64,000 bases of DNA from Aeromicrobium sp. PE09-221 (GTDB taxonomy: Bacteria > Actinomycetota > Actinomycetes > Propionibacteriales > Nocardioidaceae), in contig NZ_MIJB01000025.1 of NCBI RefSeq assembly GCF_002174305.1, positions 62,001 through 126,000 of the forward strand, written 5' to 3'. The notes under the pieces were generated by a model, which saw nothing but the letters and a program-made list of their open reading frames with translations, had not been told where the DNA came from and searched no databases. A program made the translations under genes and the position numbers. Each line of letters starts with the position of its first letter. Within the stretch, counting starts at the first letter, position 1. Below, piece by piece: positions 37,767-48,898 of the stretch.

Positions 37767-38192
37767 TCAGCGCGGGCGGAAGTGCCAGCAGGCGATGGCG
37801 GTGGAGGCGGCCACATTCAGCGAGTCGATGCCTGCAGCCATCGGGATCGTGACGCGGTGGTCGGCGGCTCGCTGCCAGTGCTCGGTCAGGCCCGGGCCCT
37901 CCGAGCCGATGACCACGGCCAGCCGCTCACCGGCTTCGGGTTCGAACTCGTCCAGCGGCACCGAATCGGCGGCCAGCGACATCGCGTAGCTGGTGAAGCC
38001 ATGCGCACGCAGCAGCTCGGGTGCGCCGTACCAGTCGTCGATCCGCGCATAGGGCAGCGAGAAGACCGCCCCCATGGCGACCTTCACCGATCGTCGATAG
38101 AGCGGATCGGCGCAGCGCGGGGACAAGAGCACGGCATCGAATCCGAGCGCCGCGACATTGCGCATGACGGCACCGATATTGGAAGCGGTCAT
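37767..38192 (-). pseudogene. TrmH/SpoU RNA methyltransferase, stranded 3' half
   Basis: The frame encodes only the C-terminal SPOUT catalytic domain: SNIGAVMRNVAALGFDAVLL (motif 1), GERLAVVIGSEGPGL (motif 2) and VTIPMAAGIDSLNVAAS (motif 3). The N-terminal substrate-binding domain is missing, and the frame meets a TAG about 42 bases upstream of the first ATG. The missing half is found 10.3 kb away, at the 5' end of the gene at 48008-48898 on the same strand, so this is the displaced native 3' end of that gene. It might still be translated from the ATG at 38192, but there is no reason to expect full function. Confidence 0.85.
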
Positions 38193-38405
38193 AAGGCGTC
38201 CTGGAGCATCTACGGCGCGTGGACTCGGTTCCTACCGGTCGACACGCCGATGAAATGAACATCGCGTCTCCGCAGATCAGAAGGTAAATACGGCCGCTCG
38301 GTCGTCATCGTCGGCCGGCTAGGAGTGTTCAATAAACCCTATGTGCCTCACTCCCCCACACACTGCCATGCTGGGACTGCGCAGCGGCGACCTGAGCTTG
38401 GGCTG

Positions 38406-38993
38406 ATGGCACTCATCGGACTCGTTCGGGTCGGGACAGACCCTCAGGACGCGAGGTTGCAACGGCAAGCACTCGAGCCGATCTGCTCACGTCTCTTCGA
38501 GGAGACAGCATCGCGTCAACGCCTGATCAAGAACCGCTCCGGGCTCCTCGCTGCTGTGGCGGAGGTCGGCGACGGGGATGTGCTTACCGTGACCCACGCA
38601 CGGAGCCTGAGCACGAGCATGGTCGACGGACTCGAGGCACTGCTGGACCTCGTTGACCGAGGAGTCGCAGTGAAGGTCCTCAATGGCCTCGCCGCGGGCG
38701 AGCACGCCGGAGACTCGGAGCTCCTCGCTGACATCCGCGAGCTCAGACAACTACGTCGAGAGCTCCAAAGCTCCCGCATCCGGGCCGGCATCCAGACGGC
38801 ACGGGAACACGGAGGCAGCCACGGCCGACCACGCACCATCAGCGACGAGACGCAGCGCGAGATTAGGATGCGGAGAGATCGAGGAGAATCGTTGCGCAGG
38901 ATCGCCGGAAGTGCTGGCGTGTCGATTGGAACCGCCCACCGCGTGCTGGCGCGACAAGGGCCTAGTCAGGGCACGTTGTCCCCTCAGCCATGA
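38406..38993 (+). CDS. Resolvase-family protein lacking the catalytic serine
   Basis: The 195-residue protein has the size and order of a small serine recombinase: LIGLVRVGTDPQDARLQRQA, a middle GDVLTVTHARSLSTSMVDGL, helix E region RELQSSRIRAGIQTAREHGG and a C-terminal helix-turn-helix (ESLRRIAGSAGVSIGTAHRV). In active members the first motif is VRVSTxxQ; here the nucleophilic serine is glycine (VRVGTDPQ), and the DRLxRS arginine cluster is altered to ARSLSTS. It is therefore probably unable to cut DNA and may act as a DNA-binding regulator. It is the first gene of the island, upstream of the hsdM genes and a pair of direct repeats. The ATG at 38406 has only a weak ribosome-binding site. The gap 38193-38405 shows no gene. 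Confidence 0.75.
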   Translation: MALIGLVRVGTDPQDARLQRQALEPICSRLFEETASRQRLIKNRSGLLAAVAEVGDGDVLTVTHARSLSTSMVDGLEALLDLVDRGVAVKVLNGLAAGEHAGDSELLADIRELRQLRRELQSSRIRAGIQTAREHGGSHGRPRTISDETQREIRMRRDRGESLRRIAGSAGVSIGTAHRVLARQGPSQGTLSPQP

Positions 38994-38995
38994 GC

Positions 38996-39027
38996 TGAGT
39001 CGGTATCGACCGTAACGTGAGTCGGTA
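38996..39027 (+). promoter_or_regulatory. Direct repeat pair upstream of the hsdM operon
   Basis: TGAGTCGGTA occurs at 38996-39005 and again at 39018-39027, 22 bases apart, or about two helical turns. It lies between the recombinase-like gene and the first hsdM, whose ATG is 40 bases further on. The phasing suits a dimeric DNA-binding protein. The resolvase-like protein just upstream is the obvious candidate, but this is inference. Confidence 0.45.
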
Positions 39028-39066
39028 GCGCCTTTGTCGCGTGGTGGAGCAATAGCTAGGAGACGG

Positions 39067-40617
39067 ATGACCGAGGATGAGGCACGCGCGGCAGCGCGGG
39101 CATTGCTGCCCCACGGCGGGAGCGATCCGCTGACGCTGGCGGAGCTTGAGCAGTACCTTGCCGCCGCGGCTGACCTGCTGCGAGGCAGCATCGACCAGGC
39201 CGACTTCAAGGCGTACATCTTCCCGCTGATGTTCTTCAAGCGGATCAGCGACGTCTACCTCGAGGAGTACGCCCAAGCGCTGGACGAGTCCGGGGGCGAC
39301 CACGAGTTCGCCCTGTTCGCGGAGAACCACCGCTTCGTGATCCCGCCCGGCAGCCACTGGGAAGACGTGCGCACCCACGCAGCGAACATCGGCACCGCCT
39401 TGCAGACTGCGTTCCGCGAGATCGAGAAGGCGAACCCCGAGACGCTGTACGGCATCTTCGGCAACGCCAGCTGGACCAACAAGGACAAGCTGCCCGATCG
39501 CAAGCTCGCCGATCTCATCGAGCACTTCTCGAGTAAGGCGCTGACCAACGCCGCTGTGCCGCCCGACGTGTTCGGCAATGCATACGAGTACCTCATCAAG
39601 AGGTTCGCCGACCAGTCGAACAAGAAGGCAGGCGAGTACTACACGCCGCGCTCGGTGGTCGGCCTGCTCGTCAACATCCTCGACCCCACAGAGGGCGAAA
39701 CGGTCTACGACCCGGCCTGCGGCACGGGTGGCATGCTGATCGAGGTCATTGAGCACGTGAAGGCCGCCGGCGGCAGCCCCAAGACGCTCTGGGGCAAGCT
39801 CTACGGGCAGGAGAAGGTGCTCGCGACCTCCGCCATCGCACGAATGAACCTTCTGCTCCACGGCATCGAGGACTTCAAAATCGTCCGCGAGGACACGCTG
39901 CGCAACCCTGCCTTCTACACGGGAAACAACCTCGCGCAATTCGACTGCGTCGTCGCCAACCCGCCGTTCTCGCTCAAGAACTGGGGCGAGCCCGAGTGGG
40001 CATCCGACAAGTGGGGCCGGAATACGCTCGGTGGTGTCCCCCCTAAGGGGTACGCCGACTGGGCGTGGGTCCAGCACATGCTCACCTCGGCGAAGCCGAA
40101 GACTGGGCGCGTCGCGGTGGTCCTGCCCCAGGGCGCGCTCTTCCGACAAGGCGCTGAGGCGCGGATCCGCACCCAGGTGCTCAAGTCGGACCTCGTCGAC
40201 GCGGTCATCGGCTTGGCTCCCAACCTGTTCTACGGCACCGGTCTCGCCGCCTGCGCGCTCATCCTCCGGCAGGTGAAGCAGCCCGGTGAGAAGGGCAAGG
40301 TGCTCTTCATCAACGGTGAAGACCTGTTCAAGCGCGGACGTAACCAAAACACCCTCCAGCCTGAGCACGCCCAGCAGATTCTCGATGCCTATGACCTCTA
40401 CTCCGACATCGAGGGCCGCTCGCGCGTCGTCGACTTGGCCGAGATCGAGGGCAACGACTACAGCCTGAATATCCCGCTCTACGTGGCCCCACACGACACC
40501 GGTGAGAAGCTCACGTTCGCGGACGCTCTAGCCAATCTCGAGACGGCGCATGCCGAGGCAACCAAGACGCGTGCCGCGCTGGAGGCCGAGCTGGTGAAGT
40601 GGGGGCTATCTGTATGA
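39067..40617 (+). CDS. hsdM: Type I restriction-modification methyltransferase subunit, HsdM 1
   Basis: The 516-residue N6-adenine methylase has the N-terminal HsdM helical domain (DFKAYIFPLMFFKRISDVY), the AdoMet motif I VYDPACGTGGMLIEV (about residue 213) and the catalytic motif IV FDCVVANPPFSLKNWG (about residue 296). LPDRKLADLIEHFS and NAYEYLIKRFADQSNKKAGE are further family blocks. With HsdS it should methylate an adenine in the target site and protect host DNA. The ATG at 39067 sits four bases behind AGGAGA. It overlaps the second methylase gene by four bases. That gene encodes a related but clearly different protein, so this is not a simple tandem duplicate. Confidence 0.93.
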   Translation: MTEDEARAAARALLPHGGSDPLTLAELEQYLAAAADLLRGSIDQADFKAYIFPLMFFKRISDVYLEEYAQALDESGGDHEFALFAENHRFVIPPGSHWEDVRTHAANIGTALQTAFREIEKANPETLYGIFGNASWTNKDKLPDRKLADLIEHFSSKALTNAAVPPDVFGNAYEYLIKRFADQSNKKAGEYYTPRSVVGLLVNILDPTEGETVYDPACGTGGMLIEVIEHVKAAGGSPKTLWGKLYGQEKVLATSAIARMNLLLHGIEDFKIVREDTLRNPAFYTGNNLAQFDCVVANPPFSLKNWGEPEWASDKWGRNTLGGVPPKGYADWAWVQHMLTSAKPKTGRVAVVLPQGALFRQGAEARIRTQVLKSDLVDAVIGLAPNLFYGTGLAACALILRQVKQPGEKGKVLFINGEDLFKRGRNQNTLQPEHAQQILDAYDLYSDIEGRSRVVDLAEIEGNDYSLNIPLYVAPHDTGEKLTFADALANLETAHAEATKTRAALEAELVKWGLSV

Positions 40618-42107
40618 GCACCAGGATCACGCAGCGCGAGCTGGAGAACTACCTGTGGGGCGCGGCGATCGTGCTCCGCGGTCTCATCGACGCCGGTGAC
40701 TACAAGCAGTACATCTTCCCTCTGGTCTTCCTGAAGCGGATCTCTGACGTCTACGACGAGGAGCACGCCGCCGCGATGGAGGTGTACGACGATGAGGAGC
40801 TCGCCGACCTCCCGGAGAACCACCGCTTCGCCATCCCCCACGGCTGCCACTGGAACGACATCCGCGGCGTCACGCACAACATCGGCGCGGCACTCCTGCA
40901 CGCCATGCGCTCCATTGAGAAGGCCAACCCCGACACACTCCCCGGCGTGTTCGGCGACGGCGACTGGGGCAACAAGGACCTGCTCCCGGACTCGACGCTG
41001 GCCGACCTCTTCGAGCACCTCTCCACCAAGACGCTCTCGATCGCCAACCTGCCCGAAGACGAGCTCGGCAACGGCTACGAGTACCTGATCAAGAAGTTCG
41101 CCGACGACTCCGGTCACACGGCGCAGGAGTTCTACACCAACCGCACGCTCGTGCACCTGATGACGAAGATGCTCGAGCCGCAACCCGGTGAGTCGGTCTA
41201 CGACCCCACTTGCGGAACCGGTGGAATGCTTATCTCCACCGCCGCCGAGCTCAAGCGGCAGGGCAAGGAGTGGCGCAACCTGCGCCTCTACGGTCAGGAG
41301 CTCAACTACGGGACCTCGGCCATCGCGCGGATGAACCTGTTCCTCCACGGCATCACCGACGGCCACATCGCCCATGGTGACACCCTCAGCCGACCGGCGT
41401 TCCTTGACGGCAAGGGCCATCTGCAGACCTTCGATGTCGTGCTGGCAAACCCGCCCTACTCCATCAAGGCATGGAACCGCGCTGCGTTCGCCAAGGACCC
41501 GTACGGTCGGAACGTGTGGGGAGTGCCACCTCAAGGACGCGCCGACTACGCATTCTTCCAGCACATCGCCAAGAGTCTCGACTCCAAGGCCGGACGAGCG
41601 GCCATTCTGTTCCCCCACGGCGTGCTCTTCCGCCGAGAAGAGGCAGCCCTGCGTGAAGCTCTGGTGAAGTCCGACCTCATCGAGTGCGTGCTCGGACTCG
41701 GTGCCGGACTGTTCTACAACAGCCCCATGGAGGCCGTGGTCGTCACGCTCCGCGCCAACAAGCCCGCCGAGCACCGGGGCAAGGTGCTGTTCATCAACGC
41801 CGTGAAGGAAGTCGCCCGCGAACAGGCACAGTCCTTCCTCCGCGAGTCGCACCAGCACAGGATCCTGGACGCCTATCACGCATTCGAGCCACAGGACGGG
41901 TTCGCTGCTGTTGCCACTCTCGACCAGATCGTCGACAAGGACCACAGTCTCGCGATCCCGCTATACGTCGCCGGCACATCCGGCAAGGAAGCCGATGAGC
42001 ACGTCGATGTCGGCGATGCCGTGGCCCAGTGGGGAGCTGCCGCGCAGGTGTCAGATCAGGCAATTACTGACGTTCTCGCGCTGCTGAGAGCGGAGGTGAC
42101 CGCGTGA
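40614..42107 (+). CDS. hsdM: Type I restriction-modification methyltransferase subunit, HsdM 2
   Basis: The 497-residue protein is a second complete HsdM: DYKQYIFPLVFLKRISDVYD, NGYEYLIKKFADDSGHTAQE, motif I VYDPTCGTGGMLISTA (about residue 196) and motif IV FDVVLANPPYSIKAW (about residue 278). It has NPPY where the first subunit has NPPF; both are active variants. The two proteins share the family blocks but differ over most of their length. A usual type I system has one HsdM that dimerises; two coupled genes suggest a heterodimer, or that each is used with a different partner. It overlaps hsdM 1 and hsdS by four bases each. Confidence 0.93.
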   Translation: MSTRITQRELENYLWGAAIVLRGLIDAGDYKQYIFPLVFLKRISDVYDEEHAAAMEVYDDEELADLPENHRFAIPHGCHWNDIRGVTHNIGAALLHAMRSIEKANPDTLPGVFGDGDWGNKDLLPDSTLADLFEHLSTKTLSIANLPEDELGNGYEYLIKKFADDSGHTAQEFYTNRTLVHLMTKMLEPQPGESVYDPTCGTGGMLISTAAELKRQGKEWRNLRLYGQELNYGTSAIARMNLFLHGITDGHIAHGDTLSRPAFLDGKGHLQTFDVVLANPPYSIKAWNRAAFAKDPYGRNVWGVPPQGRADYAFFQHIAKSLDSKAGRAAILFPHGVLFRREEAALREALVKSDLIECVLGLGAGLFYNSPMEAVVVTLRANKPAEHRGKVLFINAVKEVAREQAQSFLRESHQHRILDAYHAFEPQDGFAAVATLDQIVDKDHSLAIPLYVAGTSGKEADEHVDVGDAVAQWGAAAQVSDQAITDVLALLRAEVTA

Positions 42108-43294
42108 GCCTCAACCTCGACAAGTCGCACTGGACGCGGGTCACCTTCGGAGACGTTGTTCGCAACGTCAATGAGACCGTCCGTGATCTCGAAGCGGCCG
42201 GCATCGACCGCGTCATCGCGATGGAGCACATGGACCCCGGCGAGCTGAAAATCAGCCGGTGGGGTTCAACAGAGGACCGCACGACCTTCACGCGGCGCGT
42301 GAAGCCCGGCCAAACACTCTTCGGCAAGCGCCGCGCATACCAGCGCAAGGTCGCCTACGCCGAGTTCGACGCCGTCTGTTCTGGTGACATCTATACCTTC
42401 GAGTCCGATGAGACGCAGCTTCGCGGAGACCTGCTTCCATTCCTGGTCCGGTCGAACGGCTTTTTCGAGCATGCTCTCGGCACATCAGCCGGCTCGCTTT
42501 CACCGCGCACGAACTGGCGTGAGCTGAAGGACTTCGAGTTCGGCCTCCCTCCACTCGACGAGCAGAAGCGAATCGCTGACCTCCTCTGGTCCGTCGAGCG
42601 CCATCGGGTCAACACGCTGAGTTCCGAAATGGAGGTGTCAGGTGCGAAGTCATTGATGCTTGCCGAGCGCCTAGCCTCGGGTGCGGAGGAGCGCGGCTGG
42701 CCCCTAGAGCCCGTATCGGAGCTTGTTACTTCGGGGCCGACGAACGGGAAGTCTGCCCGCGCTAACGACGAGCAGCGAGGCGTGCCGACCTTAAGCATCA
42801 GCGCCGTGCGCGATGGCGGGGTGCGTGGCGGTGACTCTGTGAAGTGGATCGAGGTTGACCCCGACTCGGTGAGCTCGTTCCGCCTTCAGCCAAGTGACTT
42901 CCTCGTCGTGCGTGGCAATGGCAACCGCTCGCTGACCGGTCGTGGTGGCCTGGTCAATGGCGGCCTTCCCGTGGGTTGCATCTATCCGGACCTCCTCATC
43001 CGCCTTCGATTCAATCCAGACCGGATGCTGCCGGCCTTCGCGACCGAACAGTGGAACAGCGCAGCCGTGCATGCGTCGCTATTGGAGAACGCCAAGTCGA
43101 CGAATGGGATCTGGAAGATCAACGGCAAGGACATCAAGTCCCATCAACTGGTAGTTCCGCCGCTCAGGGATCAGGTCCAAATCCTGGAGGAGACGGCATC
43201 ATTTGACGAAGCGCTCGATGCCGCGCGGGCCGAGGTTTCGACTCTTGAGGTACTGAGCTCTGCATTCCTGAGTGAGATTTTCGGAGGCGACTGA
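42104..43294 (+). CDS. hsdS: Type I restriction-modification specificity subunit HsdS
   Basis: The 396-residue protein has the duplicated HsdS layout. Target-recognition domain 1 (about 1-155) ends in NWRELKDFEFGLPPLDEQKR, followed by a conserved helix; domain 2 (about 200-355) ends in GKDIKSHQLVVPPLRDQVQI and a second helix. The PPLxxQ elements mark each half, and the two recognition domains differ, so a bipartite asymmetric target is expected. The target sequence cannot be read from the protein. Base use is less GC-rich at third positions than in nearby core genes. The GTG start overlaps hsdM 2 by four bases and its stop overlaps the hsdR ATG by one. Confidence 0.92.
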   Translation: MSLNLDKSHWTRVTFGDVVRNVNETVRDLEAAGIDRVIAMEHMDPGELKISRWGSTEDRTTFTRRVKPGQTLFGKRRAYQRKVAYAEFDAVCSGDIYTFESDETQLRGDLLPFLVRSNGFFEHALGTSAGSLSPRTNWRELKDFEFGLPPLDEQKRIADLLWSVERHRVNTLSSEMEVSGAKSLMLAERLASGAEERGWPLEPVSELVTSGPTNGKSARANDEQRGVPTLSISAVRDGGVRGGDSVKWIEVDPDSVSSFRLQPSDFLVVRGNGNRSLTGRGGLVNGGLPVGCIYPDLLIRLRFNPDRMLPAFATEQWNSAAVHASLLENAKSTNGIWKINGKDIKSHQLVVPPLRDQVQILEETASFDEALDAARAEVSTLEVLSSAFLSEIFGGD

Positions 43295-46230
43295 TGGCGC
43301 AGTTCAACGAGGCGAACTCAGTCCGCGACTTCATCCGGGACCTGGTGAAGTCCATCGACGTCCAATTCGTGCCCGGCAACGAACTGCCCCGTCGTACAGA
43401 CGAGGTGTTGCTGGAAGGCGTGCTGAAGAGAGCGTTGATCAATCTCAACCCGGAGATCGAGGCGGATCCTGCTAAGGCGGAGGAAGTCATCTACAGCCTC
43501 CGCGCGATCCTGATCGCGGCTCGCAACAGCCCACATCCGGTGGTTGCCAACGAGGAGTTCATGGCGTTGCTGACCGGGCAGAAGTCGATGCCGTTCGGGC
43601 CGAACGGCGAACACACCACGGTTCGGCTGATCGACTTCGACCATGTCGACGAGGACTCGTCGAACGAGTGGATCGTCTCGACCGAGGTGACCTTCAAGCA
43701 GGGTCGGCTGGAGAAGCGGTTCGATCTCGTGCTGTGGTGCAATGGTCTGCCTCTCGTGGTTGGCGAGGCGAAGACGCCGATCCGTCCGGCGTACACGTGG
43801 ATCGACGGGGCCGCGCAGATCCACGACGACTACGAGCAAAGTGTCCCGCAGTTCTTTGTGCCCAACGTGTTCTCCTTCGCGACCGAGGGCAAGGACTTCC
43901 GTTACGGCACCATCGGCATGCCTGTCGATCTCTGGGGCCCCTGGCGCGAAGACCCTACTGATGAGGATGCGCCGGCGAAGATCGGTCTCGTCGCGGTCCA
44001 AGAGGCCGTCGAAGGCGTCCTCACTCCCCGTGCGGTGCTCGACTTTCTGCGGTTCTTCACCCTCTACGCGACTGACAAGAAGCACCGCAAGATCAAGATC
44101 ATCGCGCGATTCCAGCAGGTCCAGGCGACCAATCTGATCGTCGACCGAGTACTGCTCGGCAAGGTCAAGCAGGGCCTGATCTGGCACTTCCAGGGCTCGG
44201 GAAAGTCGCTCCTCACGGTCTTCACTGCGCTCAAACTGCGCGCGATGGCCGAGCTCACGAACCCGACGATCTTGATCGTGGTCGACCGCATCGACCTGGA
44301 CACCCAGATCACAGGCACCTTCAACGCCTCGGACGTCTCGGGCTTGGTGTCGACGGACTCGCGAGCGCAGCTCCAGACATTGCTCAGCCAGGGCGCGCGG
44401 AAGATCATCATCACCACGATCCACAAGTTCGGCGAGGCACCTGGTGTCCTCGACGCTCGGCAGAACATCATTGCGATGGTCGACGAGGCTCACCGCTCGC
44501 AGGAGGGCGACTATGGGCAGAAGATGCGTGAGGCCCTGCCCAATGCGTACGTCTTCGGTCTGACCGGTACGCCGATCAATCGGCGCGACCGCAACACGTT
44601 CAAGTGGTTCGGCGCACCCGAAGACGAGGGCGGGTACCTGTCACGGTACTCATTCCAGGACTCCATCCGCGACGGTGCGACCCTTCCGTTGCACTTCGAG
44701 CCACGACTCTCAGAAATCCACATCGACCAGGAAGCGATCGACGCGGCGTTCGAGGAACTCGCCACGGATCGCGATCTGTCCGAGAGCGACAAGATCACCC
44801 TCTCGAAGAAGGCGGCCTCGATCGAGGTGCTGATCAAGACGCCCTCGCGCATCGCGAAGATCGCTGCCGACATCGCCGCCCACTTCCAAACCAAAGTGGA
44901 GCCGCAGGGTTTCAAGGCGCAGGTCGTCGCGTACGACAAGGCCTCCTGCGTCGCGTACAAGAACGAGCTCGACAAGCACCTTGGGCCCGAAGCATCGACC
45001 ATCGTCATGTCGAAGACCCGAGGTGACTCGCCCGACTGGGCGAAGTGGACCCCAGGTGCCGAGGAGCTTGAGCAGGTTGTCGCGCGGTTCAATGACCCGA
45101 CCGACCCGCTCGAGATCATCATCGTGACGGCGAAGCTGCTGACCGGGTTTGACGCTCCGATCCTCTACTGCCAGTACCTCGACAAGCCGCTGAAGGAGCA
45201 CACGCTGCTCCAAGCGATCACTCGCACCAACCGGGTGTACCCGCCGGACAAGACCCACGGCCTGATCGTCGACTACCTCGGCATCTTCGACGACGTCGCC
45301 AGATCCCTCTCCTTCGATGAGCAGGCCGTCCGGGAGGTCGTCTCCAATATCGAGGAGCTCAAGACTCAGCTCGCGCCGGCGATGGCTGCCGCACTTGCGT
45401 TCTTCCCCGGGGTCGACCGCACGGTAGGCGGGTACGAAGGCCTCGTCCAGGCGCAATCCGTGATCGCTGACGATGTCACGAAGGACGCCTTCGGAGCGGC
45501 CTACAGCGTGGTGTCGCAGTTGTGGGAGGCGCTCAGTCCCGACCCCATGCTGGGCGAGCATCGCGACGACTACCGCTGGCTCACGGATGTCTACGAGTCG
45601 GTGCGCCCCTCCGACATCACGGGGCGACTCGTGTGGCACGCGCTCGGAGCCAAGACAATCGACCTGATCAACGAGCACGTCGCCGTCGAGATCCCGCAGA
45701 ACACCGAGACGATCGTGCTCGATGCTCAGACGATCGAAGACCTGATGACCGGTCGGCGCACCGACATCCCCACCGAAGAAATCGAGCGTCAGATCACCGC
45801 ACGCATCGCCCGGCACCTGCATAACCCGGTCTTCGTCGAACTCGGCCAGCGCCTCAACGACCTGCGCGAGCGCTACGCCGACATCCAACAGTCCAGCCTC
45901 GACTTCCTCCGAGAGCTTCTCGAACTCGCCCGCGACACCGTTGCTGCCGAGAAAGCAGTAGACGAGGTACCCCGTGAAGAGCAGGGCAAGGCGGCACTGA
46001 CTGAGCTGTTCGACGCTCTTAAGGGCGATCAGACCCCGATCATCGTCGAGAACGTCGTCAACCGGATCGACGAGGTCGTCCGTGGGGTCCGCTTCGAGGG
46101 GTGGCAGTCCACGATCCGCGGCGACCAGGAGGTCCGCCAAGCTCTGCGGAAGACCCTCTACGTCCAGTTCAAGATCCGCGACAACGACGTCTTCGAGAAT
46201 GCCCTCGGCTACGTTCGGGAGTACTACTGA
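43294..46230 (+). CDS. hsdR: Type I restriction-modification endonuclease subunit HsdR
   Basis: HsdR translocates unmethylated DNA and cuts it. The 978-residue protein has the N-terminal nuclease domain, with RFDLVLWCNGLPLVVGEAK giving the PD-(D/E)xK-type D...ExK (about residues 142-158). The motor domain has HFQGSGKSLLTVF (Walker A, about 301), IIITTIHKFGEA, MVDEAHRSQEGDYG (about 397), FGLTGTPI and AKLLTGFDAPILYCQYLDKP, with QAITRTNRVYP as motif VI. A helical C-terminal region should contact the methylase. It starts on a TGATG overlap with hsdS and shares its last base with the ATG of the next gene. Confidence 0.95.
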   Translation: MAQFNEANSVRDFIRDLVKSIDVQFVPGNELPRRTDEVLLEGVLKRALINLNPEIEADPAKAEEVIYSLRAILIAARNSPHPVVANEEFMALLTGQKSMPFGPNGEHTTVRLIDFDHVDEDSSNEWIVSTEVTFKQGRLEKRFDLVLWCNGLPLVVGEAKTPIRPAYTWIDGAAQIHDDYEQSVPQFFVPNVFSFATEGKDFRYGTIGMPVDLWGPWREDPTDEDAPAKIGLVAVQEAVEGVLTPRAVLDFLRFFTLYATDKKHRKIKIIARFQQVQATNLIVDRVLLGKVKQGLIWHFQGSGKSLLTVFTALKLRAMAELTNPTILIVVDRIDLDTQITGTFNASDVSGLVSTDSRAQLQTLLSQGARKIIITTIHKFGEAPGVLDARQNIIAMVDEAHRSQEGDYGQKMREALPNAYVFGLTGTPINRRDRNTFKWFGAPEDEGGYLSRYSFQDSIRDGATLPLHFEPRLSEIHIDQEAIDAAFEELATDRDLSESDKITLSKKAASIEVLIKTPSRIAKIAADIAAHFQTKVEPQGFKAQVVAYDKASCVAYKNELDKHLGPEASTIVMSKTRGDSPDWAKWTPGAEELEQVVARFNDPTDPLEIIIVTAKLLTGFDAPILYCQYLDKPLKEHTLLQAITRTNRVYPPDKTHGLIVDYLGIFDDVARSLSFDEQAVREVVSNIEELKTQLAPAMAAALAFFPGVDRTVGGYEGLVQAQSVIADDVTKDAFGAAYSVVSQLWEALSPDPMLGEHRDDYRWLTDVYESVRPSDITGRLVWHALGAKTIDLINEHVAVEIPQNTETIVLDAQTIEDLMTGRRTDIPTEEIERQITARIARHLHNPVFVELGQRLNDLRERYADIQQSSLDFLRELLELARDTVAAEKAVDEVPREEQGKAALTELFDALKGDQTPIIVENVVNRIDEVVRGVRFEGWQSTIRGDQEVRQALRKTLYVQFKIRDNDVFENALGYVREYY

Positions 46231-47939
46231 TGAGAGTCCGACAGTTCCGACTGGAGCGTTACCGATCCATTCTCAAAAGCGAGGGAATGGATCTAAGGAC
46301 CAAGACTGTACTCGTTGGCCCGAATAACGAAGGGAAGTCGAACATCCTTCGTGGTCTGGTTGTTGGGCTGCGAGCAATCTCCGACATCGGTGACCGTAGG
46401 CCGTATCCCACAAGCGGCCGCGCGCGACGAGAGGACTGGGATTTCGAAACGTACACGTGGGAGTCGGATCTTCCCGACGTCGTTCGAGAGACGAAGCCGA
46501 ACTCAGCCACCGTTCTGGAGTTTGACTTCGAGCTCAGTGAAGAGGAAGTCGACGAGTTCAAGTCGCGCACAAAGAGCGGTAATAACGGTACCTTGAAGGT
46601 CCGACTCCGTCTCTACCGTGAACGACGTGAGATGGAGATTATCAAGCAGGGACCGGGTAGCAAGAAGATTAACGAGAAGCAGGTCGTCATCGCGAAATTC
46701 ATTTCTGAGCGAGTTCGCGTTCAGTACATCCCTGCATCCCGTCCTGCGGTCGAGTCAGTCGCATTGATGCGCGCTGAGGTACGCTCCCGTCTTGCGGCAT
46801 TGGAGAGCGATCAGCAGTATCGAGAGGCGCTGGACGTTGTGCTTGGTCGCCGGAAGGATGCCTTGGCACCGCTCGGCGCATCGGTTACCGAAGCGCTTCG
46901 ACGATTCCTCCCGAACGTCAGATCCGTCGATATTGAGCCAAGCGGACACGACTACTTCGGAGTAAGCTCGTGGGCCAGGGCAGCTTTTGACTTCATGGTC
47001 GACGACGGCGTGAAAACACCGCTCGCGTCGAAGGGTGACGGTGTGCAGCGCCTCGCTGCCATCTCTTTAGCGCACTCTCTGACACAGACAACCAAAAATG
47101 CCGACCTGATTCTCGCCGTCGAAGAACCCGAGGCCCACCTTCATCCCGCAGCGGTGCACGAGCTTCGCGTTGTCCTGGACGAGATCGCCCAAGATCAACA
47201 GGTCGTTATCACAACCCATAGCGCATTGCTCGTGAGTCGTGACGATATCGCAGGCAACGTTATTATCCGGCAGAACCGCGCAGTTCAGGCGGAGTCGCTC
47301 GGTCAGATCCGCGATGTCCTCGGGGTTCGCATCGAGGATAACCTCCACTCGGCGAGCGTCATCTTGCTCGTTGAAGGGCTCGGCGACAAGAGAATCGTCG
47401 AGGCGCTCCTGGCTGCTCAAAGCACGATAATCAAAGCCGCGCTGGCAGACGGGACGCTGCGCATCGAGATCACCACCGGCGCACCCAATATTGCGTACCA
47501 GTTCCGTCACTTCTATGACGGTGTCTGCCGCGTTCACGCTCTACTCGACGATGACGCTGCAGGGCGCAAGGCTCTCGAAGCCCTCGAGAAGGAGCACGGA
47601 TTCAGCTATCTTGACGCGACCATGGTGACGGTCGTCGGCATGAACGACTCGGAGGTGGAAGATCTGTTCGACGAAGCATTCCTGGGACCGGACATCCTCG
47701 CTCGATTCAACGTGACCCTGGATCCTGCTCACACTCACCCGCAAAAGAAGTTCAAGCTGCGTATGCAAGACTACTTCGCAGGCTCCGGTCAAGGTTGGAC
47801 TAAGGCGATCGAGGACGACCTCAAGACCCTCGTTGCCGATGCCGTCGAGCGCGATCCGGTCGCCGCCCTTCGGGCCGAACGAAGAGGACCGCTCGATGCC
47901 CTCGTTCGCGAAATTGAATCCAAGCTAGAATCGTCGTGA
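46230..47939 (+). CDS. OLD-family ATP-dependent endonuclease (ABC ATPase + TOPRIM)
   Basis: The 569-residue protein has the OLD/GajA architecture. An ABC-type ATPase has Walker A VLVGPNNEGKSNILRGL (about residue 29), an interrupted middle region and ILAVEEPEAHLHPAAVHELR (about 298) with VVITTHSALLVSR. A TOPRIM nuclease domain has ILLVEGLGDKRIVEALL (about 378, invariant glutamate) and LLDDDAAGRKALEAL (about 438, metal-binding aspartates). Such nucleases act against phage in several systems, including P2 OLD and Gabija. No UvrD/GajB helicase follows. The ATG overlaps the hsdR stop by one base, so it is the fifth gene of the restriction operon. Codon use is visibly less GC-rich than hsdR. A short GGGG/CCCC hairpin lies in the 68-base gap after it. 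Confidence 0.88.
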   Translation: MRVRQFRLERYRSILKSEGMDLRTKTVLVGPNNEGKSNILRGLVVGLRAISDIGDRRPYPTSGRARREDWDFETYTWESDLPDVVRETKPNSATVLEFDFELSEEEVDEFKSRTKSGNNGTLKVRLRLYRERREMEIIKQGPGSKKINEKQVVIAKFISERVRVQYIPASRPAVESVALMRAEVRSRLAALESDQQYREALDVVLGRRKDALAPLGASVTEALRRFLPNVRSVDIEPSGHDYFGVSSWARAAFDFMVDDGVKTPLASKGDGVQRLAAISLAHSLTQTTKNADLILAVEEPEAHLHPAAVHELRVVLDEIAQDQQVVITTHSALLVSRDDIAGNVIIRQNRAVQAESLGQIRDVLGVRIEDNLHSASVILLVEGLGDKRIVEALLAAQSTIIKAALADGTLRIEITTGAPNIAYQFRHFYDGVCRVHALLDDDAAGRKALEALEKEHGFSYLDATMVTVVGMNDSEVEDLFDEAFLGPDILARFNVTLDPAHTHPQKKFKLRMQDYFAGSGQGWTKAIEDDLKTLVADAVERDPVAALRAERRGPLDALVREIESKLESS

Positions 47940-48007
47940 CCCTCTGCAGCGACCCGATTCCCTGTCCAATAGGCGCTGGGGCAACCACCCCACTATGCTT
48001 CCTGTTC

Positions 48008-48898
48008 CTATCGCGTCGCGTAGAACGCCACGGCCGCCGACGCCGCGACGTTCAGCGAGTCCACGCCGCGCATCATCGGGATCGTCACCCGGCGGTCGAG
48101 CCGACGATCGGCCTGGCGCGTCAGCCCGTGTCCCTCCGTCCCGAACACCAGCGCCAGATGCGGGTGACCCTCGGCAACCAGATCGTCGAGTGTGATCGCT
48201 CCCTCGCCAAGCGTCATGCCGGCCACGACGTACCCGTGCTCCTTGATCATGTCGATGTCGCCAGGCCATGAGTCGATGCGTGCCCACGGAACCTGGAAGA
48301 CTGTCCCCATCGACACCCTGATCGAGCGGCGATACAGCGGGTCCGCACAGCTGGGAGTGACCAGAACACCGTCCACACCGATCGCCGCAGCCGACCTGAA
48401 AGCGGCACCAAGATTCGTGTGGTCCACAATGTTCTCGAAGATCGCGATCCGTGACCGTGTCCTCGTATTCGAGGAGAACTGCGGGGTTTCACGACCGCCC
48501 ACGTTGGTGTGATCGACCAGATCCTCGGCCACGAGCACACGATGAGCCGAGGCCAGCACCACCTCGGGAGTCGCCGGTTCGGGCCGCTCCATCGCCGCCA
48601 ACGCGCCACGATGCACGTGGAATCCGGTGACCTGCTCGATCGTCTTCTCATCGAGGACGTAACAGGGCGCATCGGTCGTCTGCAGCACATCGGCTAGTGA
48701 CTCCATCCACCGCGGGGCGAGCAGAAGGGAGCGGGGACGGTGGCCCGCCTCGACGGCCCGGCGCACGACCTTCTCCCCCTCGGCGATGTAGAGGCCGCGC
48801 TCGGTCTCCAGGAGCTTGCGCAGGCTCACGTCGCGTAGATCGGTGTAGTCGCGCAAACGCGGATCGTCCGCGCCCGCGACCTGAATCAGCTCGGCCAC
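48008..48898 (-). CDS. TrmH/SpoU RNA methyltransferase, chimeric native 5' and island 3' halves
   Basis: The 296-residue 2'-O-ribose methyltransferase-like protein has the N-terminal substrate-binding domain (LRKLLETERGLYIAEGEKVV) and a full SPOUT domain (NLGAAFRSAAAIGVDGVLV, LALVFGTEGHGL, VTIPMMRGVDSLNVAAS). Between them, VAEDLVDHTNVG is followed by about 19 extra residues (GRETPQFSSNTRTRSRIAI) and then NIVDHTNLG, so the DHTN segment is present twice. That marks the join: the first copy is the native gene and the second belongs to the island-borne 3' half. The reading frame is open across the join. Whether the extra loop allows activity is unknown. The divergent PEBP gene starts 19 bases away. 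Confidence 0.9.
   Translation of the reverse strand: MAELIQVAGADDPRLRDYTDLRDVSLRKLLETERGLYIAEGEKVVRRAVEAGHRPRSLLLAPRWMESLADVLQTTDAPCYVLDEKTIEQVTGFHVHRGALAAMERPEPATPEVVLASAHRVLVAEDLVDHTNVGGRETPQFSSNTRTRSRIAIFENIVDHTNLGAAFRSAAAIGVDGVLVTPSCADPLYRRSIRVSMGTVFQVPWARIDSWPGDIDMIKEHGYVVAGMTLGEGAITLDDLVAEGHPHLALVFGTEGHGLTRQADRRLDRRVTIPMMRGVDSLNVAASAAVAFYATR

Follow-up and report, generated by a model that had tools for sequence, protein, structure and literature searches.

What kind of element splits a SpoU-family methyltransferase gene of Aeromicrobium sp. PE09-221, supplies it with a second 3' half, and by what means did it arrive? The window, i.e., the whole stretch of DNA analysed here, comprises 64,000 nt (GCF_002174305.1, contig NZ_MIJB01000025.1, positions 62,001 to 126,000, forward strand), and coordinates below are those of the window unless a locus is named. 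On its minus strand lie a fused methyltransferase gene (48898-48008, 296 aa) and, ~10 kb away, a native 3' fragment of the same gene (38178-37767). The initial annotation interpreted this arrangement as a defence island that sits in trmH and uses a 3' half of its own to restore that gene. Here, we show that the join is exact and that empty sites exist in 45 of 49 genomes of the genus, in support of that interpretation, and we conclude that the island is probably a site-specifically integrated, integrase-less, CIME-like defence cassette moved in trans by a serine integrase.

Gene interruption and repair

The only sequence common to both joins is, as first noted, the tetranucleotide TTGG (CCAA on the minus strand), found at 38179-38182 on the left and at 48504-48507 on the right. 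Scripted joining of the flanks, minus the 10,325 bp between the two copies (38179, 48504), yielded 268 codons and a stop, confirming the exact joining predicted for the removal of about 10.3 kb. The rejoined gene aligns without gaps with the uninterrupted gene of Aeromicrobium piscarium (L102), with 246 of 268 aa and 697 of 804 nt identical; across the join, where the sequence reads CACACCAA followed by TATCGG, 59 of 60 nt are identical. The comparison with empty-site strains that had been proposed shows an uninterrupted attB in close relatives, namely in A. piscarium and as a contiguous gene in 45 of 49 Aeromicrobium genomes (counted by eye from a table, with the window genome among the 49). 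The four non-contiguous cases are the window genome itself, G006, which carries a second insertion, G036, in which a contig ends inside the gene, and G009, which has distant relatives of the gene only. The objection that no relative might possess an intact gene thus fails.

The island-supplied and native 3' halves are different sequences (264/444 nt identical), and the former is fused in frame, as had been claimed. The objection that the halves are merely paralogues without a join fails as well, the 268-codon rejoining being exact; the two halves group with different hosts in a tree. The severed native 3' (SPOUT) part occupies 37767-38178 on the minus strand, as supported by Pfam, the rejoining and its grouping with Aeromicrobium halves. 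The initial annotation had extended this fragment to 38192; the native fragment is real, but its start ATG comes from the island and 38183-38192 is island DNA. With this new ATG, a 141-aa SPOUT fragment (37767-38192) could, judging from the sequence, be made from the orphan. The name trmH also proved loose: the target carries a SpoU_methylase domain and a near-threshold MRM3-like N domain (Pfam and NCBIfam profiles), and no NCBIfam equivalog reached the cut-off.

Read along the minus strand, the fused gene consists of the native 5' part (48508-48898; N-terminal domain, based on Pfam and the rejoining), the right core, a right attP-type arm translated as a linker (48455-48503; arm comparison and structure model), and, in frame with the native part, the island-supplied 3' half (48008-48454), a SPOUT domain that begins with its own first beta strand and runs to the stop (Pfam and structure model). 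Since the island supplies an entire SPOUT domain, first strand included, together with a linker, the fused protein contains two copies of the target motif: the native EDLVDHTNV is followed by the linker and then by the island's RIAIFENIVDHTNLG. A structure model of the fused protein, built with 30 aligned relatives (mean pLDDT 85.1, pTM 0.83), places 184 of 296 residues at pLDDT 90 or more, with residues 121-144, including the leftover native motif, below 50. In the model, the leftover native strand is predicted to lie in a disordered linker, and the island's strand 149-154 opens the SPOUT domain, indicating that the whole catalytic domain was replaced by that of the island. We infer that the fused methyltransferase is active, and the locus clearly illustrates how a mobile element can repair a gene at the level of a domain.

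In some uninterrupted genes (L100, L103, L107, L108, L112, G018 and G335), the SPOUT domain contains or is preceded by a variable stretch or a half resembling those of the islands. These genes may have been repaired long ago and since lost the first motif by erosion, and the methyltransferase family may hold many such chimeras.

Distribution among actinobacteria

Full-length matches to fused proteins were found in 4/341 family genomes, 4/391 order genomes (G432 degenerate) and 10/394 class genomes, the three samples overlapping; a clear double motif was present in 5 of the 10 class matches, own genome included. G700, G758 and G893 exceeded the class-search cut-off and were rejected for want of a double motif; in G799, G820 and G432 the first motif is degenerate at most. 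A genome scan confirmed 567 loci, and among the best 80 of these the double motif was recognised by eye in ten, belonging to Jiangella, Brevibacterium, Leucobacter, Citricoccus, Microbacterium, Nocardioides, three Streptomyces and Actinomadura. Fusions with differing linkers at, or a few bases from, the window's codon were collected at 19 loci, among which G432 and G820 are degenerate and L132, L135, L176 and L168 form a second subgroup. Overall, the proposed search for other islands ending in a methyltransferase 3' half recovered same-codon fusions in roughly ten actinobacterial genera besides Aeromicrobium, excluding the Streptomyces/Actinomadura subgroup, a count that is approximate because some genomes may fall within genera already counted. 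Such recurrence renders a chance origin untenable, and the original observation is more general than first stated. The searches favour in-frame fusions, so that the in-frame state of all of them is partly by construction.

Where both ends were located, elements measure 10.3 kb in the window and roughly 2.2 kb in G006, 2.8 kb in Nocardioides albidus and 3.5 kb in G331; rough sizes for the others are 10.9 (G466), 8.1 (G659), 10.6 (G679), 2.0 (Jiangella), 10.8 (Brevibacterium) and 37 kb (Citricoccus). G432, G768 and G820 have a fused or degenerate fused gene with no second 3' half within the 34-38 kb fetched downstream, and we therefore read them as scars. Sinomonas mesophila (L099, 10382-19908) carries two elements in tandem with three 3' halves, the last of which has an internal stop; the left end of one element is joined to the arm of the next, and the double motif is no longer visible in the first gene. 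M. resistens has one additional partial half.

Attachment sites

The joins share CCAA (4 bp) in the window, CAA (3 bp) in N. albidus and nine bases in G006. Taken with the other joins, the sharing of CCAA only and of CAA only places the crossover at or next to AA, while the 9 bp of G006 do not tell one class of recombinase from another. Outside the core, the right ends read AACGTGNNSGGTYCCAAA or a loose variant of it, and several left ends finish with ACACC-CC just before the AA. The summed information of 14 right arms was 11.0 bits (shuffle mean 3.5, highest of 2000 shuffles 5.8) and that of 13 left arms 9.5 bits (shuffle mean 4.3, highest of 2000 shuffles 6.3), values that ignore kinship, which inflates information, and that include two left arms from one genome and leave out the Citricoccus left arm. 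The window's own left arm (38183-38210, minus strand) is a poor fit to the left-arm consensus, and under a strict arm pattern no more than 3 of 206 loci were recovered. The arms are common to the element ends beyond shuffles, as expected of serine-integrase sites. In the window genome, no P' arm was found besides the island's own copy (control 0).

Defence cargo and signs of transfer

Comparison of the six cargo genes with Pfam, PADLOC and NCBIfam bears out the designation as a defence island, the cargo being essentially a type I restriction system and an OLD-like ATPase. All six are on the plus strand: a resolvase-like protein (38406-38993, discussed below), two HsdM methyltransferase subunits (hsdM-1, 39034-40617, and hsdM-2, 40599-42107), the specificity subunit HsdS (42104-43294), the restriction subunit HsdR (43294-46230) and an OLD/AriA/GajA-like AAA ATPase (46230-47939). 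The hsd and ATPase assignments rest on Pfam and PADLOC, that of hsdR also on NCBIfam; the ATPase open reading frame as listed begins at GTG 46101, and we chose the ATG at 46230 as its start. In these three collections, neither phage structural or replication genes nor transfer families were detected among the six genes. The single type I system contains two tandem HsdM subunits (39034-42107), as does that of G679.

Two stretches that span most of hsdR and most of the hsdM pair match the element of G679, a member of another family, at 89.7-89.8% nucleotide identity, as against 69.5% for the fused gene as a whole. One stretch within the 3' part of hsdS (gene 42104-43294) has no match to G679 in a type I system of otherwise ~90% DNA identity, suggesting that a specificity part has been exchanged. 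Likewise, the island half is 92.5% identical at the amino acid level to the half of the Brevibacterium element, as against 52.5% for the host N-terminal parts. In a tree built from 37 C-terminal halves, with 8 of the 45 rows left out (A. piscarium among them), the window's native fragment groups with that of G006 and the only remaining intact Aeromicrobium row (100/97), and the window's island half with that of the Brevibacterium element (99/92). The incoming halves do not form a single clade (8 changes, of which at least 4 are forced). The occurrence of near-identical cargo or halves in other families suggests recent movement in an integrase-less state.

Related elements also carry defence genes. 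Type I restriction is shared by the window, G659 (with Mrr) and, by DNA identity, G679; G466 encodes an MmeI-type enzyme, a helicase and a GIY-YIG-type protein, Jiangella AbiD, Brevibacterium an AbiLi-like ATPase, RloB and an OLD-like ATPase, M. resistens PDC-S46 and Actinomadura NB-ARC-TPR. The Citricoccus element has a PrrC-like AAA_13 protein followed by a long cluster without defence families, and the cargo of L132 and L135 was seen as open reading frames; defence thus makes up most, though not all, of the cargo. In Citricoccus sp. CH26A (L222-L223), the element at this site is 37 kb long and includes DUF6603, PhoD, alpha-amylase, LCAT and AAA families. The idea that it carries a contractile injection system found no support, since the 8 proteins scanned gave four Pfam matches (PhoD, DUF6603, alpha-amylase and LCAT), one AAA and no tail family. 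No family match was obtained for the cargo of the G006, G331 and N. albidus elements. The first two encode similar proteins of 528 aa (G006, L036 7934-9520) and 492 aa (G331, L063 11607-13085) without a Pfam family, the former also without a PADLOC match, which are candidates for a new defence protein. The 738-aa protein of N. albidus (L060 5436-7652), with no Pfam or PADLOC match, is likewise a candidate defence protein.

Integrase and phage counterparts

The catalytic Ser and the two Arg of the LDRLGR motif have active-site roles in serine recombinases. The resolvase-like protein of the island (38406-38993) is a small serine-recombinase domain, identified by Pfam and by alignment with five PDB sequences that include a DNA-invertase and resolvases of Tn3 and gamma-delta (E 4.8e-10 to 3.8e-4). 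In it, Gly replaces the catalytic Ser, and Ser and Thr occupy the positions of the two Arg. In its relatives from the G679 and Brevibacterium elements, Thr takes the place of this Ser and both Arg are likewise missing, the C-terminal part of the Brevibacterium protein aligning poorly. In these three genomes, representing at least two genera, the pseudo-resolvase occupies the slot that an integrase holds in the IMG/VR contig L181. At E 1e-15, relatives were found in 5/296 class genomes, including the window and G679; among the remaining three, L204 keeps its catalytic motif intact and L205 and L206 have no N-terminus, and no methyltransferase piece was found in the flanks of any of these three. 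Our guess would be that the pseudo-resolvase is a DNA-binding relic or a control factor.

By profiles, catalytic residues and motif pattern, no active integrase was found in the window island. In 12 element-bearing genomes, neither PF07508 nor PF00589 matched inside the element by coordinates, with genome matches elsewhere in 9/12 and in 12/12, respectively. PF07508 was found nowhere in the G331, G679 and Sinomonas genomes, arguing against a common resident helper. Although the L181 integrase had matches in 8/10 host genomes (best 42% identity, in Jiangella), none of the ten carries such an integrase at the methyltransferase gene, by contig and coordinates. No methyltransferase piece was present at four inspected loci of L181-like integrases or in the flanks of 15 integrase loci from 197 class genomes. 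A regular-expression search for an active serine recombinase in 15 regions returned two chance matches only, and no integrase-bearing element with the core and arms of the window's subgroup was found.

Integrase-bearing counterparts were found among phages. A tblastn search of the island half against 50,697 phage records matched 40, the three best being the Streptomyces phages Kamino (PP750867) and Sitrop (MT701598; two records; genus Camvirus), whose half is 65.1% identical to that of the island. In both, a divergent serine integrase (Resolvase and Recombinase domains) adjoins the methyltransferase half, and in Kamino an attP-like dyad lies between them, with GTAGACC and GGTCTAC arms around AACGTGGGCGC. 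Kamino and Sitrop would be expected to use the same host gene. A search of IMG/VR with C-half patterns recovered Sitrop again and L181, and one with N-terminal patterns confirmed no relative. L181, a 6.7-kb contig, represents an integrated form, with the fused gene (5' end cut), other open reading frames, the integrase and the native fragment; its integrase lies at the left end of the element, adjoining the native fragment, and is transcribed inward. The ends of Kamino and L181 differ from those of the window's subgroup in their arms, and their core is displaced by a few bases. A plasmid search returned 84 records, all below 60% identity.

Mode of integration

In the mechanism that we favour, a serine integrase acting in trans would join a circular attP to the attB inside the SpoU-family methyltransferase gene, with the crossover at the AA of the motif-1 Asn codon. 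The fusion at one end would connect the native N-terminal domain, via a linker that is the translated attP arm, to the complete SPOUT domain of the element, rebuilding the enzyme, and the other end would leave the native catalytic half as a fragment; the cassette would deliver the type I restriction system and the OLD-like ATPase. The exact empty site, the recurrence, arms beyond shuffles, the phage and other integrase-bearing counterparts and the S. mesophila tandem array, which is compatible with mobilisation by a related integrase, speak for this CIME-like reading, as does the retention of attL and attR without recombination or transfer genes. The weak left arm of the window, the lack of an integrase-bearing member with the same arms and the incoming halves not being one clade speak against it. 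Both the serine-integrase chemistry of the window's subgroup and its mobilisation in trans are inferred from these comparisons. Alternatively, an integrase-bearing element or prophage could have lost its integrase after integration, leaving an island that is immobile now and kept for its useful defence cargo. A pseudo-resolvase without catalytic residues, an element without any integrase-family match, the scar-like fused genes with no native fragment downstream (G432, G768 and G820) and a window genome with no second P' arm would all suit such decay. Yet the elements of 12 genomes all show no integrase-family match while their ends and cargo look intact and their cargo differs, near-identical cargo or halves across families suggest recent integrase-less movement, and pseudo-resolvases are present in three genomes from two or more genera; we consider decay unlikely.

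Tyrosine recombinases leave a longer identical overlap at joins, and the 9 bp shared in G006 could be taken for one; the 4 bp of the window and 3 bp of N. albidus fit such enzymes poorly. The gene repair resembles that of the dusA islands (PMC4482086), but PF00589 has no match inside the elements of 12 genomes and the phage relatives carry serine integrases, so that we reject a tyrosine-recombinase element of the dusA or prfC type as highly improbable. Just as little probability remains for homologous recombination, by which a foreign methyltransferase region with flanking defence genes would have been captured within the gene. Homology between the two halves and the frequency of such genes in the class speak for it, but recombination would join the halves inside the homology without a linker, whereas each join consists of a duplicated motif and a non-homologous linker, holding the shared arm, at the same codon. 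We thus retain the reading of a cassette mobilised in trans by a serine integrase.

Comparison with known islands and implications

RlmH has a SPOUT fold, the cargo of SCC is frequently restriction-modification, and prfC is another target gene that is repaired by integrative elements. As far as the accessible part of the ECC paper describes them, SCC and ECC lie in the 3' region of an RNA methyltransferase gene (rlmH), with variable cargo and large serine recombinases. The island resembles them in site and variable cargo, and differs in that they have ccr genes and rlmH, whereas here the target is a SpoU_methylase gene, PF07508 is absent and the whole catalytic domain is replaced. The islands in dusA replace one end of an RNA-modification gene, the 5' end, and restore the lost strand, a tyrosine integrase being their only universal gene in the text accessible to us (PMC4482086); the window island has no tyrosine integrase and brings a 3' half. 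Given the other target and the absence of a ccr-type recombinase and of a tyrosine integrase, the island works in the manner of SCC and dusA islands without belonging to either group.

Streptococcal ICEs in rumA also enter a methyltransferase gene (of 23S rRNA) by a serine integrase, with 2-21 bp repeats; rumA and the integrase gene swap their 3' parts, and the accessible sections count the insertions as disruptions and describe no repair half (PMC4701971). The phage phiJoe, which has a serine integrase, and small mobile relatives share an attB near the end of the radical-SAM gene SCO2603, again with no repair half described in the accessible text (PMC5311408). CIMEs (cis-mobilizable elements), described as decayed ICEs or IMEs, keep attL and attR without integration and transfer genes and form tandem accretions (PMC5704250, accessible part); the elements here differ in being a recurrent, mostly defence-related set with phage counterparts. 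Kamino and Sitrop have a 3' half 65% identical beside a divergent serine integrase, unlike the island in being phages with an integrase and, for Kamino, in having arms other than those of the window's subgroup; the accessible text on these phages does not state their attB. In titles and abstract openings of the open-licence literature searched, a weak negative, this methyltransferase gene is not named as an attachment site.

A broader picture, possible if on the doubtful side, would be an actinobacterial pool of integrase-less defence cassettes that use one methyltransferase codon, each bringing a spare catalytic domain, so that the host would keep its enzyme and a motif resembling the target would arise anew for the next cassette. 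The serine integrases of those temperate phages that target this gene would move the cassettes in trans, so that phages would spread anti-phage systems, and the dead recombinase would be a control factor. The site is a recurrent and easily searched entry point for actinobacterial defence systems, linked to temperate phages, and it provides a source of new attB/attP pairs as well as a test case for integrase-less defence cassettes travelling on phage integrases.
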